DNA from: a virus
Strand: one strand, 5' to 3'
DNA length: 36,023 nt
IMG/VR virus record: IMGVR_UViG_3300043313_000227
Span: 1-36,023 of that record
The notes under the pieces were generated by a model. That model had not been told where the DNA came from, made no database searches, and saw only the letters and a list, made by a program, of their open reading frames with translations. Positions 7,576 through 14,374 of the stretch are shown here, one piece after another. The position numbers were made by a program, and so were the translations under genes. The first letter of the stretch is position 1, and every line of letters begins with the position of its first letter.

Positions 7576-8132
7576 GCAAACGCCGCGGCAAGACCAAACC
7601 CAAAGGCAAGCGGAAACCCGCGGAGCCCGTCGAGGGGCCCATGTCGATCGCCGCGTTCGCTCGCGACAGGAACGTCGACGAGAAGGCCATCCGCAAGGGG
7701 ATCGCGTCCGAACGGATCCCGCCCTCGTGCGTCGGACTCTCGAGCACCGGGCGCCGCCAAGTGATCACCGACGTCGCCGCCGCGCGCGCCGCGTGGGATG
7801 CGAACGCCGCCCGGGTTCCCAACGGTCCCGCCGTCGATGCCGGTCGCTCGTCGCTCGTCGAGGCGTCGACGCTCACGGCAATGGAGCGCCATCGGCGCCT
7901 CAAGATCGACAACGATCTCCGCGAGGGCCTGGCGCTCAGTGTTCCCGCGGCGAAGCGTGAGGCGTTTGAAAGCTACCGCACGATCCGCGATACCCTCCTG
8001 AACGTGTCGGCCCGATACGCGGAGGAGCTCGCCGTGATCACCGATCCCGCGGAACTCCGCCGGCGCCTCGACGCGATCATCCGCGAGGCGCTCGGCGAAT
8101 GTGCGGATCGACTCGAGGCGAGCGGGGAGTGA
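7572..8132 (+). CDS. Terminase small subunit, Nu1-like
   Basis: DNA-recognition subunit of the packaging motor. 186 residues starting from GTG 7572 (GTGA overlap). A basic leader of ~20 residues is followed by an HTH-like segment SIAAFARDRNVDEKAIRKG (~26-44). A long helical region then includes STLTAMERHRRLKIDNDLR (~98-116), typical of Nu1-type proteins, where the N-terminal winged helix binds cos and the C-terminus docks the large subunit. The overlap with the GpA-type terminase supports the call. A cos site is expected nearby but was not identified. Confidence 0.78.
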   Translation: MSKRRGKTKPKGKRKPAEPVEGPMSIAAFARDRNVDEKAIRKGIASERIPPSCVGLSSTGRRQVITDVAAARAAWDANAARVPNGPAVDAGRSSLVEASTLTAMERHRRLKIDNDLREGLALSVPAAKREAFESYRTIRDTLLNVSARYAEELAVITDPAELRRRLDAIIREALGECADRLEASGE

Positions 8133-10204
8133 GCGACGCCGCCGCCGTCCGCGTGATCCGCCAGGCGCGGGCCGACGGCATCCGTCCGGAGCGCGTGCTC
8201 ACCGTGTCGCAATGGGCCGACGAGAAGCGACGGCTCCCGAAGAAGTCGAGCGCGGAGTCCGGGCCCTGGCGCACCGACCGCACGCCGTACCTCCGCGAGA
8301 TCATGGACAACTTTTCGTCGACGTCCGACGTCGAGGAAACCGTGTTCATGAAAGCCTCGCAGATCGGCGGGACGGAGGTTCTCCTGAACGCGCTCGGCTA
8401 CATCATCGATCACGCGCCCGGGCCCGTGATCATCGTGTGGCCGACGGACGGCACGGCGAAACGGAACTCCCGTCAACGCGTCGGGCCGCTCACGACGGAC
8501 ACGCCCGCGATCGCGGAGAAGGTCGCGCCGGTCAAGTCCCGCGACTCGACGAACACCGTCCTCGAGAAGTCGTTCCCCGGCGGGCACCTCGTGATCGCGG
8601 GCGCGAACTCCGCGAACGGTTTGAAGTCGATGCCGGCGCAGTACGCGCTCATGGACGAACTCGACGGCTGGCCAATCGACGTCGATGAGGAGGGATCGCC
8701 GATCGCGCTCGTCGAGGTGCGACAACGCACGTTCTCCCGTCGGAAGCGACTCAAGATCTCGTCGCCGTCGATTGCGGGGCGCTCGGCGATCGAGGCCGCG
8801 CACGATCGCGGCGATGCGCGCCGGTTCTTCGTCCCGTGTCCGATCTGTTCAGAATTTCAGGAACTCACGTTCGACCGGATCGTCTGGACGAAGCTCGGAC
8901 TCCCGCCGGCCGCCGCCGTGTACGAGTGTGCGGGATGCGGCGGGTACATCCGCAATCATCAAAAAACGGCAATGCTCGCCGCGGGCGAATGGCGCGCGAC
9001 ACACCCGGGCCGCGGCGGCGGGAAGATCCGGAGCTATCACCTCAACGCCCTGTACGCGCCGGTCGGTTGGATCTCCTGGGGCGAGATCGCCGTCGATTTC
9101 GTCGCGAGCGAAAAGGATCCGGAGAAGCTCCGCGTTTTCATCAATACGATCTTGGGCCAGGTGTGGACGTCGAAGGGCGAGGCGCCTGAATGGGAATCGC
9201 TCTACAACCGGCGCGACACGTACGCGATCGGGACCGTTCCCCGCGGCGCGCTCGTACTCACGTGCGGCGTCGACGTGCAGAAGGAACGGCTCGTATACGA
9301 GGTCGTCGGATGGGGCCGCGGGAAATCCTCATGGTCGATCGACGCGGGCGAGATCCCCGGCGATCCCGCCGACATGGAACGGGGTCCGTGGGGCGAACTC
9401 GAAAAACTGACGGCGCGATTGTTCCCGCACGAAAGCGGGATCGAGATGCCGATCCGATTGCTCGCGATCGACTCCGGGTATCAGGATCAACCCGTTCACG
9501 CGTGGGTCCGGCGCCCGCACTCGACGCAAGTGATCGCCGTGAAGGGTTTCGAGTACGGCGGCGCGATCATCGGATCACCGAAGCCGGTCGAAGTCATGAT
9601 CAGCGGGAAGAAACGGAAGCGAGGCGGGCGCGTCTGGCCGGTCAGCACCTCGATCGCGAAAACGGAATTCTACGGGTTCCTTCGTCTCGAGCGTGAACCG
9701 AACAAACCGGATCCCGCCGGCTACGTTCGATATCCGGAGTACGGCGAGGAGTGGTTCAAACAGATCACCGCGGAGCAACTCACGGCGACGAAAACCCGCC
9801 GCGGGTACATCCGGCTCGAGTGGTCGGTCCTCGCCGGTCGCCAGAATCACGCGCTCGACTGTCGCGTCTACGCGCGCGCCGCCGCCGCGCTCGCCGGCCT
9901 CGACCGGATGAACGACCGCGATTGGGACGCCCGCGAGAAATTCCTGGGACTCCACCAAACGCCCGCCGCCGCCGCCGCGGACGCCGCCGCCGACGCTCGA
10001 GCGCGCCGCCCTGGCACGCCGCCGGCGCCCGCCCAGGAGGCGGCGACGTCGAGCTCGACGCCACCCGCCGCGCCGGCGCCGCTCCGCCCGGGACTCCGCC
10101 CGCGTCCGGCGCCCGCCGCGCCGCCGACGCCCGCGGCGCCCAGGAAACCGGCGCCGCCCGCCTGGGTTCCGTCGCGTCCCGGCTGGCTCAAGCCTCGGTC
10201 GTAG
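8129..10204 (+). CDS. Terminase large subunit, GpA family
   Basis: Packaging ATPase and nuclease of 691 residues from GTG 8129, chosen because it overlaps the small-subunit stop. Seen: P-loop-like KASQIGGTE (75-83), Walker B LMDELD (174-179), a zinc ribbon CPIC...CAGC (Cys 237, 240, 267, 270), and nuclease-region acidic strands CGVDVQKERL and LAIDSGYQDQP, with HALDCRVYA near the end of the conserved part. The last ~75 residues (from about 10,000) are Ala/Pro/Arg low complexity, probably a flexible tail that binds portal or is lineage-specific. GpA terminases usually cut at cos sites, so genome ends are probably cohesive. Confidence 0.95.
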   Translation: MSDAAAVRVIRQARADGIRPERVLTVSQWADEKRRLPKKSSAESGPWRTDRTPYLREIMDNFSSTSDVEETVFMKASQIGGTEVLLNALGYIIDHAPGPVIIVWPTDGTAKRNSRQRVGPLTTDTPAIAEKVAPVKSRDSTNTVLEKSFPGGHLVIAGANSANGLKSMPAQYALMDELDGWPIDVDEEGSPIALVEVRQRTFSRRKRLKISSPSIAGRSAIEAAHDRGDARRFFVPCPICSEFQELTFDRIVWTKLGLPPAAAVYECAGCGGYIRNHQKTAMLAAGEWRATHPGRGGGKIRSYHLNALYAPVGWISWGEIAVDFVASEKDPEKLRVFINTILGQVWTSKGEAPEWESLYNRRDTYAIGTVPRGALVLTCGVDVQKERLVYEVVGWGRGKSSWSIDAGEIPGDPADMERGPWGELEKLTARLFPHESGIEMPIRLLAIDSGYQDQPVHAWVRRPHSTQVIAVKGFEYGGAIIGSPKPVEVMISGKKRKRGGRVWPVSTSIAKTEFYGFLRLEREPNKPDPAGYVRYPEYGEEWFKQITAEQLTATKTRRGYIRLEWSVLAGRQNHALDCRVYARAAAALAGLDRMNDRDWDAREKFLGLHQTPAAAAADAAADARARRPGTPPAPAQEAATSSSTPPAAPAPLRPGLRPRPAPAAPPTPAAPRKPAPPAWVPSRPGWLKPRS

Positions 10205-10441
10205 TGGAGCGGAGTGGAGCAACCCGGGCGGGATTACAAAAGTGTTCCACGTGGAACACGGGCGCCGACGTCGAGCTCCTCGAAACCGGCTCGCCGCCGC
10301 GCCAGGCGCGCCGCCTGTAGGCGCCAGGACGCCCGCCCGCCCGTCTGGCCCTCCCGCCGACGGCGCCGTTCCTGGGGCACGCCAGGCGCCTCGACCGTTT
10401 CCGCCGGATCGCCCGCCGTGCTATCCTCCCGATCAAACCTC
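10205..10441. other. 237-bp intergenic region between terminase and gpW-like gene
   Basis: No convincing gene. It holds a short direct repeat of GTGGAGC at 10204-10219, the parS palindrome at 10242-10259, several CCAGG/CCTGG words and a weak -10-like TATCCT at 10422-10427 ahead of ATG 10442. The frame starting at 10242 is open but looks like Arg/Pro-rich read-through of GC-rich DNA. Confidence 0.6.
10242..10259. promoter_or_regulatory. parS: parS-like ParB-binding palindrome
   Basis: GTGTTCCACGTGGAACAC is a perfect 18-bp palindrome. Its central 16 bases, TGTTCCACGTGGAACA, match the bacterial chromosomal parS consensus TGTTNCACGTGNAACA at every defined position. Chromosomal-type ParB proteins load onto such sites and spread as CTP-dependent clamps. 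No parA or parB gene is visible in the window, so a host ParB or one encoded elsewhere would be the ligand. Only one copy was found. The DNA match is direct; the function is inference. Confidence 0.8.
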
Positions 10442-10651
10442 ATGCCGTGGACACAGACCGACGCCGACAACCTACGCCGCGCAATCGCCGACGGCCGCGG
10501 CGCCCGGTCGATGTCATTCGGCGATCAGACGGTTGTGTTCAACTCGCTCAAGGAAATGATCGAGCTCCTCGCCATCATGGAAACCGACGCCGCGACGACC
10601 GCGGGCACCCGTCGCGCGTACCGTGTGGCCGTCACGAGCAAAGGCGTTTAG
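10442..10651 (+). CDS. gpW-like head-tail joining protein
   Basis: 69 residues starting MPWTQTDADNLRRAIADGRG, then SMSFGDQTVVFNSLKEMIELL. This is the compact alpha/beta pattern of gpW-family joining proteins: an N-terminal helix, a beta hairpin around a GD turn, and a second helix with SLxEM. In lambda, gpW sits between terminase and portal genes and completes the head before tail attachment. Here it follows terminase but is separated from the portal gene by a 3.7-kb sugar cassette. The frame is open upstream to 10214, but that part crosses the parS region and looks non-coding. Confidence 0.8.
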   Translation: MPWTQTDADNLRRAIADGRGARSMSFGDQTVVFNSLKEMIELLAIMETDAATTAGTRRAYRVAVTSKGV

Positions 10652-10669: not shown

Positions 10670-11404
10670 ATGGCCGCGCCGCTCCTCGCCGCCGTCTACT
10701 TCGGATCCGGCGCCGCGGGCGACGATTTCCGCCGCCTGGCGAACGTCCTCGAGTATTCGGCGCGACGTCACGCGCCGGCCTGGCGCCTCGACGTCCGACA
10801 CGTTCCGCCCGCGACCGGCTACCGCTCAACGCTCGGCGTTCCCGCTCATGAGAACAATTCCGCGAAGCTCGATCACTGGCGCGACGTGATCGCGAGCGCC
10901 GCCGACGGCGACCGCGTGCTCCTCATCGACGCCGACACGATGATCACCGGGTCACTCGATGACGCGTGGGATCGCTCGTTTGATCTCGCGTACACGACCG
11001 CGGCGGATCGGCTCCCGCTGAACGCCGGCGTCGTGTTCGTGAACGTGTCGGATCGCTCGCGCGGGTTCCTCGAGCAATGGGCCGCCGTGAACCGGAGTTT
11101 CCTCGGCGATGCGAACGCGCTCCGGCCCTGGCGCAATCGGTACGCGGGGATCAATCAGGCGGCGCTCGGGTTCATGCTCGAGCGCGCCGGCCACGGATGC
11201 CAGGTCGAGCGGCTCGACGGCGTGATCTGGAATTGCGAGGACTCCAATTGGCGCCGGTTCGATCCCGACGTCACGCGGATCGTTCACGTGAAGTCGGATC
11301 TCCGGCGGGCGATCCTCCGCGGGCACTCGCGGCCGGCGCTCGCGAACATCGTCACCGCCTGGCACGCCGTCGAGGCCAGCGTGAAAGCAGAGGCCAGGAC
11401 ATGA
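10670..11404 (+). CDS. GT-A-like glycosyltransferase
   Basis: 244 residues with features of a nucleotide-sugar-dependent glycosyltransferase: RVLLIDADTMI with the metal-binding DAD at 87-89, and LPLNAGVVFVNVS (~114-126), the order seen in GT8-like and related phage enzymes. A region around GINQAALGFML and a late HVKSDLR motif with His (possible metal ligand) also fit. Sugar donor and acceptor are unknown. First gene of the inserted sugar cassette; overlaps the next gene by ATGA. No membrane span, so it would act in the cytoplasm, for example on virion proteins or sugar intermediates. Confidence 0.68.
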   Translation: MAAPLLAAVYFGSGAAGDDFRRLANVLEYSARRHAPAWRLDVRHVPPATGYRSTLGVPAHENNSAKLDHWRDVIASAADGDRVLLIDADTMITGSLDDAWDRSFDLAYTTAADRLPLNAGVVFVNVSDRSRGFLEQWAAVNRSFLGDANALRPWRNRYAGINQAALGFMLERAGHGCQVERLDGVIWNCEDSNWRRFDPDVTRIVHVKSDLRRAILRGHSRPALANIVTAWHAVEASVKAEART

Positions 11405-13059
11405 CGGCGCCGCTCGTGAGCGTGATTATCCCGACGCACAATCACGCGCACGTGATCGGCGAGGCGATCGCGAGCGTGCTCGAGCAGACCGTTCCCGTCG
11501 AGGTCATCGTGATCGATGACGGCTCGACCGACTCGACGCCCGACGCGCTCGCCGGCTACACGGACACGCGGGTCCGCTCGATCCGTCAGCAGCAAAGCGG
11601 GCCCTCCGCGGCGCGGAACCTCGGGATCGAGATGGCGCGCGGGGCGTTCGTGATGTTCCTCGACGCCGACGACGTCATCGCGCCGGAGAAGCTCGAGACG
11701 CAACTCCGGGCGTTCGATGCGACGGTCGGTTGGGTTCTGTGCGACGTCGAGATCAGGGACGCCGCCAAGCACCGAACGATCAACGCGTCGGCGCAATACC
11801 GATACGACCGGCTCGATCTCGGCGGATGGATCGCGCCGATCCTCCGAAACGGGAACGTGATCCCGATCATGTCGCCGCTCGTGCGACGGTCAACGATCGG
11901 CGCGCTCCGGTTCGATGATGCAAAGGTTCCGGAGGACTGGTATTTCTGGATCGCGATCGCGGAGGCGGCGCGATGCCGGTACGTTCCGGAGGTGCTCGCG
12001 ACCTATCGACACGGGATCACCGGGCGCTCGCGGCTCCCGAAGTCGGCGCGCCTGGCGCATCACGGGATCCGCTCGCCGCTCCGGCTCAATCTCGGATGCG
12101 GCAACCCGGCGGATCGCTCCTGGCACCCGCTCGACGGGTTCGTGAATCTCGACAAGGCGCTCGGTTGGAAGTTTGAACACGGCCTCGGCGAATTCGCGAA
12201 CGGGACCGTCGCGGGGATCACGATCTCGCACGCGCTCATGTACCTCGCGGCGCCCGCCTGGCCGACGTTCGTCGATGAGCTCGCCCGCGTGCTCGAGCCT
12301 GGCGGCGTGGTTCGGATCACGGAGGACGCGACCGACGACCGGCGATCCCGATCGTTCGGCGGATGGAAGGGATCGCAACCGGCGATCACGCTCACGACGC
12401 CGGCGTTCGTCCGCGAGCACCTGGCGGCCGCGGCGTTCGACGTCGCCGATGTCACGCCGGAGGAGACGCGGTTCCGCGACGGCTCGCTCCGGCAACGGTT
12501 CCACGGCGATCCGCCTGATGTCTTTTTCGTCGAGGGCGTCAAGCGGAACGCGATCCTATTCGCGCCGCACGCCGACGACGAGACGCTATTCGCGGCGTTC
12601 ACCCTGCAACGCGCCCGCCCGCGGATCGTGATCTGTTTTCCGTCCGTGCGCGACTACGGCGACACGTACCACCGGGCGGAGGAGTCGCGCCAGGCGGCCG
12701 CCATCCTGGGCGCCGGGCCCGTCGTGCAATGGCAGGGCGGCGATCTCGCGGCGCGGATGCGCGAGCTCGTCGAGGCGCACGGCGCGCCGTCGGAAGTGTG
12801 GGCGCCGTCGGCGAACGCATCGCACGCGGATCACGTGGCCGTCGCCGCCGCGGCGCTCGAGGTGTTCGGCGCCGACGTCCGGAGGTACCAGACGTATCAG
12901 GGCGAGGAGCGGGTCCGCGAGGGCCGCGAGGTTCCGCCGCCGACGCCCGCGGCGATCGAGCGGAAGATCCGCGCGCTCGCGTGCTACACCTCGCAACTCA
13001 CGCACCCGCGGAGCTCGGCGTTCTTTCTCCACGATCAACGGGAGTACGAGGAATGCTAA
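11401..13059 (+). CDS. Fusion: GT2 glycosyltransferase, SAM methyltransferase, PIG-L/LmbE deacetylase
   Basis: 552 residues with three enzyme domains in order. Residues ~1-215: GT2 glycosyltransferase with SVIIPTHNH (7-15), VIVIDDGSTDST (35-46), SGPSAARNLG (66-75) and FLDADD (86-91, DxD = DAD). Residues ~225-380: class I methyltransferase with LNLGCGN (229-235), ITISHALMYL (273-282) and VLEPGGVVRI (297-306). Residues ~383-552: PIG-L/LmbE-type zinc deacetylase with APHADDE (388-394) and SHADHVAV (474-481), the PHxDDE and HxDH pair; Ala replaces the usual Pro. Together they could transfer, methylate and N-deacetylate an N-acetyl sugar. ATG overlaps the previous stop; the next gene starts inside this one. 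Domain identities are strong, joint function is inferred. Confidence 0.82.
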   Translation: MTAPLVSVIIPTHNHAHVIGEAIASVLEQTVPVEVIVIDDGSTDSTPDALAGYTDTRVRSIRQQQSGPSAARNLGIEMARGAFVMFLDADDVIAPEKLETQLRAFDATVGWVLCDVEIRDAAKHRTINASAQYRYDRLDLGGWIAPILRNGNVIPIMSPLVRRSTIGALRFDDAKVPEDWYFWIAIAEAARCRYVPEVLATYRHGITGRSRLPKSARLAHHGIRSPLRLNLGCGNPADRSWHPLDGFVNLDKALGWKFEHGLGEFANGTVAGITISHALMYLAAPAWPTFVDELARVLEPGGVVRITEDATDDRRSRSFGGWKGSQPAITLTTPAFVREHLAAAAFDVADVTPEETRFRDGSLRQRFHGDPPDVFFVEGVKRNAILFAPHADDETLFAAFTLQRARPRIVICFPSVRDYGDTYHRAEESRQAAAILGAGPVVQWQGGDLAARMRELVEAHGAPSEVWAPSANASHADHVAVAAAALEVFGADVRRYQTYQGEERVREGREVPPPTPAAIERKIRALACYTSQLTHPRSSAFFLHDQREYEEC

Positions 13060-13757
13060 CGGTCCTAACGTGGAAGTGGGGCGCGAAGTTTTCCGCCCGT
13101 CACGTGAACACGCTCCGCTCGATGCTCGCGCGCCGGCTCGCGCTCGAGCACCGCGTCGTGTGCGTCACGGATGACGCCGCGGGGATCGACTCCGACGTCG
13201 AGACGATCCCGCTCCCTGGTCGACACTCCGACTCGCCGCGATGCCGTCGCCGTATGCGGGCGTTCGATGCGACGTGGGCCCGCGGGATCGGCGAGCGGAT
13301 CCTCGCGCTCGATCTCGACGTCGTGATCACCGACGATCTCACGCCGGTCGTCGACCGTCCGGATCCGCTCGTGTGCTGGCGCGTCGGGTACGCGGGCGTG
13401 TTCTCCGGCTCCGTGATCCTGATGAACGCCGGCGTCCTCGATCCGCTGTGGCGGGCGTTCGACAAGGATCCCGCCGGCTACGCCAGGCGCGCCTCGCCGC
13501 GCGGCGTCGGCAGCGATCAGGCGATGCTCAATTTCTACTTGGGGCAATCGACGACGAAGCTCCGGCCCGGCGTGTGGACGGAGGCCGACGGGTTCGTGAC
13601 GTTCTTCGGCGCGGGATACGAACGGCTCGAGCGCCGCGGCGTAGGGCCTGGGAATCCGAAGCTCCCGCCAGGCGCGCGGATCGTCGTCCTGGGGAGTGAT
13701 GATCTCTACGTGCTCGAGCAGGGCGAGCACTATCCATGGATCAGCGAATGGCGATAG
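13053..13757 (+). CDS. GT-A-like glycosyltransferase, DLD type
   Basis: 234 residues starting MLTVLTWKWG. The key segment RILALDLDVVITDDL carries DLD (87-89), a metal/nucleotide-sugar DxD, followed by LMNAGVLDPLW and GVGSDQAMLNFYL, a pattern like the first cassette enzyme and other phage proteins annotated as glycosyltransferases. The donor is unknown. ATG lies 7 nt inside the fusion gene's end, so the two are coupled. The true start is clear because TGC TAA of the upstream gene spans it. The next glycosyltransferase starts 22 nt before this gene ends. Confidence 0.68.
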   Translation: MLTVLTWKWGAKFSARHVNTLRSMLARRLALEHRVVCVTDDAAGIDSDVETIPLPGRHSDSPRCRRRMRAFDATWARGIGERILALDLDVVITDDLTPVVDRPDPLVCWRVGYAGVFSGSVILMNAGVLDPLWRAFDKDPAGYARRASPRGVGSDQAMLNFYLGQSTTKLRPGVWTEADGFVTFFGAGYERLERRGVGPGNPKLPPGARIVVLGSDDLYVLEQGEHYPWISEWR

Positions 13758-14374
13758 AGCTCGTGACGTTCGTTCCGTTCGATCTCGAGGCAAACCTGGG
13801 GCGCGCCTACAATCACGCGATGGCGCTCCTCCCGCCGGACGCCTGGGCGGTTCTGTTCGATCACGACGCGATGCCGACGACGCGGGAATGGTACCGGCAG
13901 ATCACCGAAGTGATCGAGCACCGGCCCGACGTCGGACTACTCACGGCGACGACGAACCGGATCGCGTCGCCGTGGCAGCGCGCCGCGGAGTCCGATCTGA
14001 ACAATCACGACATGGCGTATCACCGGAAGCTCGGCGCCGCGCGCCTCGAGCGCCGGACGCTCCTCGACGTCACCGACACGAAGGGCCTCGGCGGCGTGCT
14101 CATGGTGCTGTCGAGGCGAACCTGGGAACGCGTCGGCGGGTTCGTCGACGGAATGCTCTGTGTCGATCACATGATGCACTTCGCCGTCGCGCGCGCAGGC
14201 CTCAGGGTCTACGTCGTCGATAGTCTGTACGTCTACCATTGGCGCCGCGCACACGGCGACGAACTCCCGGCCAGCGTGCCAAAGGCCAAACGCTGTCCAT
14301 GTCGAGGGCCTGAACCGACGCCGACGCGGCGGATCCCGATCGTTCCGGAAGGGGCAACGAATGAGACTCGATAG
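13736..14374 (+). CDS. GT2-like glycosyltransferase, DHD type
   Basis: 212 residues. AYNHAMALLPPDAWAVLFDHD (split around residue 36) ends in the DxD-like DHD (42-44) followed by AMPTT, and GGVLMVLSRRTWERVGGF (~118-135) matches the acceptor-side segment of GT2 enzymes that process secreted or surface sugars. The C-terminal ~35 residues after VYHWRRAHGDELP are a basic, Pro-rich tail. Two starts are possible: ATG 13736 or ATG 13748, four codons in. The gene overlaps both neighbours and is the last of the cassette, running directly into the portal gene. Confidence 0.68.
   Translation: MDQRMAIELVTFVPFDLEANLGRAYNHAMALLPPDAWAVLFDHDAMPTTREWYRQITEVIEHRPDVGLLTATTNRIASPWQRAAESDLNNHDMAYHRKLGAARLERRTLLDVTDTKGLGGVLMVLSRRTWERVGGFVDGMLCVDHMMHFAVARAGLRVYVVDSLYVYHWRRAHGDELPASVPKAKRCPCRGPEPTPTRRIPIVPEGATNETR

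Follow-up and report, generated by a model that had tools for sequence, protein, structure and literature searches.

A chromosomal-type parS palindrome conserved between the terminase and gpW genes of a soil phage and its relatives, a probable loading site for host ParB

What is an exact chromosomal-type ParB site doing in the packaging region of a phage? The question is raised by the 16-mer TGTTCCACGTGGAACA, which lies at positions 10243-10258 of a 36,023-base IMG/VR virus record of a soil phage, analysed here over its whole length and referred to as the window. Judging from the sequence, we propose that this palindrome is probably (probability of roughly 0.6) a working parS kept to recruit the chromosomal ParB of the host.

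The palindrome in the TerL-gpW gap

The first-pass annotation of this DNA had placed the site between terminase and gpW, which is correct: TerL, stop codon included, extends to 10204, and the first base of gpW is 10442. The locus comprises the following features.

8099..10204, plus strand: terminase large subunit gene (TerL), GpA-type, by similarity to annotated terminase large subunits
10205..10441, plus strand: noncoding gap of 237 nt between TerL and gpW (218-250 nt across the clade), which holds the parS-type site
10232..10237, plus strand: GATTAC hexamer just upstream of the parS-type site, invariant in the clade alignment
10242..10259 (core 10243-10258), no strand: parS-type palindrome GTGTTCCACGTGGAACAC, with a 17-nt invariant run in six distinct genomes
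10415..10425, plus strand: conserved promoter-like block CGTGCTATCCT of the extended -10 type, just before gpW
10442..10651, plus strand: gpW-like head-tail adaptor gene (phrog_2545, E=5.8e-12)

Portal, capsid-protease fusion and tape measure genes follow downstream of gpW. Between gpW and the portal gene (10670-14374 of the window), glycosyltransferase genes are inserted, with family matches at 12729-13757 and 13736-14374 and a third glycosyltransferase-like ORF without a family match.

The annotation had further described a 16-base core perfect against the ParB-site consensus, a full palindrome extended by one pair and a chance origin as very unlikely, all of which was borne out. At 10243-10258 the core shows 0 mismatches to TGTTNCACGTGNAACA, a chromosomal-type consensus that may not be that of the phage's own host, and it is the sole match in the window, where the next best have 3 mismatches. 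With its extra pair it forms the only perfect 18-nt palindrome of the window and is one of two perfect 16-nt palindromes. From the base composition of the window, 2.9e-6 copies of the 16-mer and 2.5e-5 of the consensus are expected by chance. The same 16 bases form parS2 and parS3 of P. aeruginosa, which are sites preferred by ParB (PMC4368675), and parS of P. putida (PMC7022226).

Conservation was judged in relatives with a TerL at least 70% identical (the clade) wherever their DNA runs past TerL. All of these carry a parS-type site at the same locus, the check that the first-pass annotation had suggested. All 16 bases are identical in six distinct sequences (the window, L123, L124, L125, L132 and L141), in which the site lies 30-48 nt from the TerL stop; L130 has one CG-to-TG change (TGTTCCATGTGGAACA) and the site at +78. 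The longest invariant run of the gap is TGTTCCACGTGGAACAC (17 nt), and the next are two of 8 nt, CGAAACCG and CGTGCTAT, the latter inside the promoter-like block. Invariant columns account for 17/17 of the site (100%) versus 36% of the gap outside it (46% of ungapped columns). The nominal probability of 17 consecutive invariant columns at the site, 3e-8 to 2e-6, is a guide only, because alignment columns are not independent, and clade conservation is drawn from just six distinct sequences, with shared ancestry explaining part of it. The 17-nt invariant run and the fixed locus point to a site under selection, as in a phage parS of the phi29 kind. In distant relatives the TerL-gpW gap is absent, near-absent or different: TerL and gpW abut in Rhodobacter phage RcBaka, the gap is often 1-22 nt in others with a placeable gpW, and no site of fewer than 3 mismatches was found near TerL.

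A coding role was rejected: although ORF 10214-10651 of the window runs across the site, in 4 of 5 relatives the frame of gpW does not stay open as far back as the site, the spacing between the two shifts the frame among relatives, and no conserved frame translates the site. Rfam gave no structured-RNA match. A longer element around parS was likewise set aside, since a search of viral contigs for ATTACNNANN together with parS returned only the clade plus unrelated phages, and the extended pattern was not shared among the latter beyond chance. It is extremely unlikely that the palindrome is an intrinsic terminator stem or an accident. The minus strand of the window does read as a stem followed by TTTTGTAATC; however, this T run is present in the window only and lost in relatives (ATTCTGTAATC and the like), it lies on the strand without flanking genes, all of which are on the plus strand, and the stem shows no compensatory-pair changes. 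Chance is excluded by the conservation and the expectation.

Partition and integration genes in the clade

No parAB came to light in the window, as the first-pass annotation had it, nor in complete genomes of relatives. Ten records reached through TerL yielded no ParB_N (PF02195). In seven clade records, of which two are circularly complete, searches found neither ParA-type AAA_31 (PF13614) nor Phage_integrase (PF00589) or Resolvase (PF00239). G006 and G007 have 123-nt terminal repeats, as in circular complete genomes. By these searches (ten records for PF02195, seven for PF13614), the site has neither a parAB on the same replicon nor the ParA and ParB genes of a phage-encoded parABS, and the clade resembles phi29 in being without a ParB of its own. 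Apart from unknowns, the other annotated clade genes encode methyltransferases, a replication initiator, RusA and a Cas4-like exonuclease. None was recognised as a lysogeny gene and nothing in them indicates life as a prophage or plasmid, although known families are missing for most of the early region. In G007 this region (L202:4037-11079) contains three DNA methyltransferase genes (N6/N4, Dam-like and C5).

Clues to the host were few. In a genome collection, TerL matched only loci about 40% identical, from three unrelated phyla. Among named phages, those closest by TerL are Wolbachia WO and Rhodobacter phages (42-47%), and those closest by capsid are Rhodobacter phages (41%). No tRNA was detected in the window, and the one predicted in a relative is uninformative on the host.

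parS-type sites in other phages

The exact 16-mer was found in at least 120 stretches of viral contigs, as was TGTTTCACGTGAAACA, compared with 54 for the composition-matched control palindrome TGTTCCAGCTGGAACA (complete scan) and 29 for the control TGTTGCACGTGCAACA, all counts ignoring relatedness. By the simple criterion of lying outside ORFs of at least 80 codons, 39% of the 16-mers and 47% of the TGTTTCACGTGAAACA sites among the matches listed were intergenic, versus 4% for TGTTCCAGCTGGAACA and 24% for TGTTGCACGTGCAACA; this corresponds to 49 of 127 listed 16-mers against 2 of 54 for TGTTCCAGCTGGAACA (Fisher p=2e-7). Among the matches listed, ParB_N occurred in 0/46 records with an intergenic 16-mer and in 2/48 with an intergenic TGTTTCACGTGAAACA, the latter count taking in 48 of 54 records. 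An integrase was present in 0/46 parS-bearing and 4/46 control records among the matches listed, which is suggestive and not significant. Compared with control palindromes, exact parS 16-mers occur in viral contigs more often, and more often between genes, nearly always without ParB.

Some contigs showed more elaborate arrangements. In each of L105, L293, L320, L329 and L339, a few kilobases hold three to five perfect parS-type sites. In the related contigs L049, L071, L099, L108 and L109, TGTTCCACGTGGAACA adjoins TGTTTCACGTGA, placing two parS variants side by side; close to the L071 site is a terminase with relatives among those of Pelagibacter phages. In two low-GC phage contigs, TGTTTCACGTGGAACA (L271:6344-6369 and L272:3097-3122) is flanked on its two sides by the arms of a long inverted repeat (TTTTGGCAGTATTA...TAATACTGCCAAAAC).

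Phages with known hosts were then considered. A 33-nt query containing the site matched 67 phage records, of which Pseudomonas phages made up 20; many of the matches fell where no feature is annotated. A control query matched 41 records, which belong to a few clades (chiefly Vibrio, Mycobacterium and cyanophages), and its matches lay inside a gene wherever a feature was annotated; its single unannotated match, with mismatches, was a parS-bearing microvirus. Most of the phages matched by a TGTTTCACGTGAAACA query were those of Listeria, Gordonia, Microbacterium, Arthrobacter, Lactobacillus, Enterococcus and Bacillus. This TT variant is the one found in phages of Gram-positive hosts, among them those of Bacillus, Lactobacillus, Enterococcus and Arthrobacter, where it is often clustered; in cultured Pseudomonas phages the site equals parS of P. 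aeruginosa and P. putida exactly (PMC4368675, PMC7022226). Whereas each clade genome has a single parS-type site, many other phages have several: five perfect sites in SYP and four in Goe23, four sites in Bacillus vB_BcoS-136, and three each in Lactobacillus Bromius and Lpa804 and in Butyrivibrio Arian. ParB_N exceeded the cut-off in one of the 25 records that were inspected in full, that of Stenotrophomonas phage BUCTxx99. In Klebsiella jumbo phages the 16-mer was found only inside genes, where annotated; Klebsiella is not known to have a chromosomal parABS, and these copies are expected background. Dozens of short Listeria phage records (LM 4-11-1 and LM 4-14-1) with parS matches were excluded because they look like assembly fragments, possibly of deposited host chromosome DNA. 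Two Microviridae, ssDNA phages of about 5 kb (KT264816.1, L442; PQ006874.1, L443), have parS-type sites in the spaces that separate annotated genes, and in one of the two phages a pair of copies abut; it would be surprising to find ParB on the replicative form of such phages. We found no report in the open-access literature of host-type parS in ParB-less phages besides phi29, and the breadth seen here seems unreported there.

These comparisons bear on whether the palindrome could belong to a phage repressor or another host factor and merely happen to equal parS. GATTAC and CGAAACCG are conserved nearby as well, as such a regulatory region might be. We nevertheless regard this as improbable: the ParB consensus fits at every base, the 16-mer and TGTTTCACGTGAAACA recur intergenically in unrelated phages and control palindromes far less, and where the host is known the phage carries the variant of its host's ParB.

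Host ParB might also bind the site for the sake of transcription, with ParB clamps covering the promoter-like block about 170 nt downstream, so that head-gene expression is damped or timed and late development is tied to host state instead of segregation being served. The conserved CGTGCTAT between site and gpW would fit, as would the sites found in the head operons of KPP25, CRPAP1904, Butyrivibrio Arian and Enterococcus 2/Chl-5, and overproduced ParB silences genes near parS in P. aeruginosa (PMC7022226). However, other phages have their sites in early or unknown regions, and calling the CGTGCTATCCT block near gpW a promoter is our own inference, since a simple sigma-70 scan found no promoter match in the gap. 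Silencing by ParB at normal levels is, moreover, usually weak. We consider this role unlikely, though less so than an unrelated regulatory palindrome.

A proposed role for host ParB and its closest parallels

The exact consensus, the noncoding position, the conservation at one locus, the host-matched variants and the fact that no phage ParB, ParA or integrase was found all lead to the reading of the palindrome as a loading site for host ParB, and host-matched parS in many other phages suggests that phages borrow the segregation machinery of their hosts. After DNA entry, host ParB would bind the site and load as CTP-dependent clamps that slide over the neighbouring kilobases, that is, over terminase and head genes. 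Loaded ParB would link the phage genome to host ParA and SMC, and the genome could thereby be positioned, and shared out at division, in a slow, carrier or dormant infection, by analogy with the role proposed for host ParB (Spo0J) on phi29 DNA in sporulating B. subtilis. As the benefit we favour positioning and segregation over head-gene timing or other effects. parB is non-essential in P. putida and P. aeruginosa, where delta-parB strains are viable.

The first-pass annotation had suggested that host ParB is borrowed for prophage segregation or positioning, or is titrated during infection. The use of host ParB is supported by the conserved locus, the match to host variants, and window and related complete genomes in which no parB or parA was found. 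Segregation as a prophage is not, since the clade records yielded neither a tyrosine nor a serine integrase domain, and the term would have to refer to an extrachromosomal or carrier state. Titration, by which the site would distract ParB and disturb host chromosome segregation in favour of the phage, appears very unlikely. ParB pools are limited and site copies multiply as the phage replicates, but one site per genome makes a poor sponge, spreading lets any single site recruit many ParB molecules, and the fixed position would be left unexplained.

More tentatively, and at somewhat less than even odds, host-matched chromosomal parS may be widespread and largely unrecognised in phages without ParB or integrase, including virulent tailed phages and ssDNA microviruses. 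It would serve as a plug-in to host ParB-CTP/SMC by which phage genomes are positioned or segregated, or lysis is delayed, and this far more widely than in spore formers, with the window clade as one conserved lineage. If host ParB loads on such phages, a protein central to chromosome segregation doubles as a host factor for phages. The parS variant of a phage would then hint at its host, and integrase-less phages would have a simple route to outlast cell division or time late genes, which could explain pseudolysogeny-like states.

Known systems share parts of this arrangement. The parS2 and parS3 sites of P. aeruginosa are the identical 16-base perfect palindrome and belong to the highest-affinity class, but lie near oriC with parAB on the same replicon, whereas no parAB was found for the window phage (PMC4368675). 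The parABS cassettes of P1 and cluster A mycobacteriophages likewise put a centromere-like site on a phage genome, together with their own ParA, ParB and parS; neither protein was found here (PMC7157519). In SGI1, parS mimics hijack the parABS of IncC plasmids: the parS copies of this mobile element are those of a different replicon, whose ParB it does not carry, and they stabilise it, but it is an integrative element with a plasmid partner and a plasmid-type parS, neither a phage nor dependent on chromosomal ParB (PMC10954446). For phi29, a role of host ParB (Spo0J) on phage DNA in B. subtilis was proposed in 2005, as relayed where PMC9437464 cites that work. Phage phi29 shares with the window phage the lack of a phage ParB and, on our proposal, the action of host ParB on phage DNA; the phi29-type phage Goe23 has its four perfect consensus sites without ParB_N. 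phi29 is a protein-primed podovirus with several sites and a spore-forming host, whereas the window phage has lambda-type packaging, a single site and a host that is not necessarily spore-forming. By analogy, phi29/Spo0J is the direct precedent for the arrangement proposed here, and SGI1 a parallel one.
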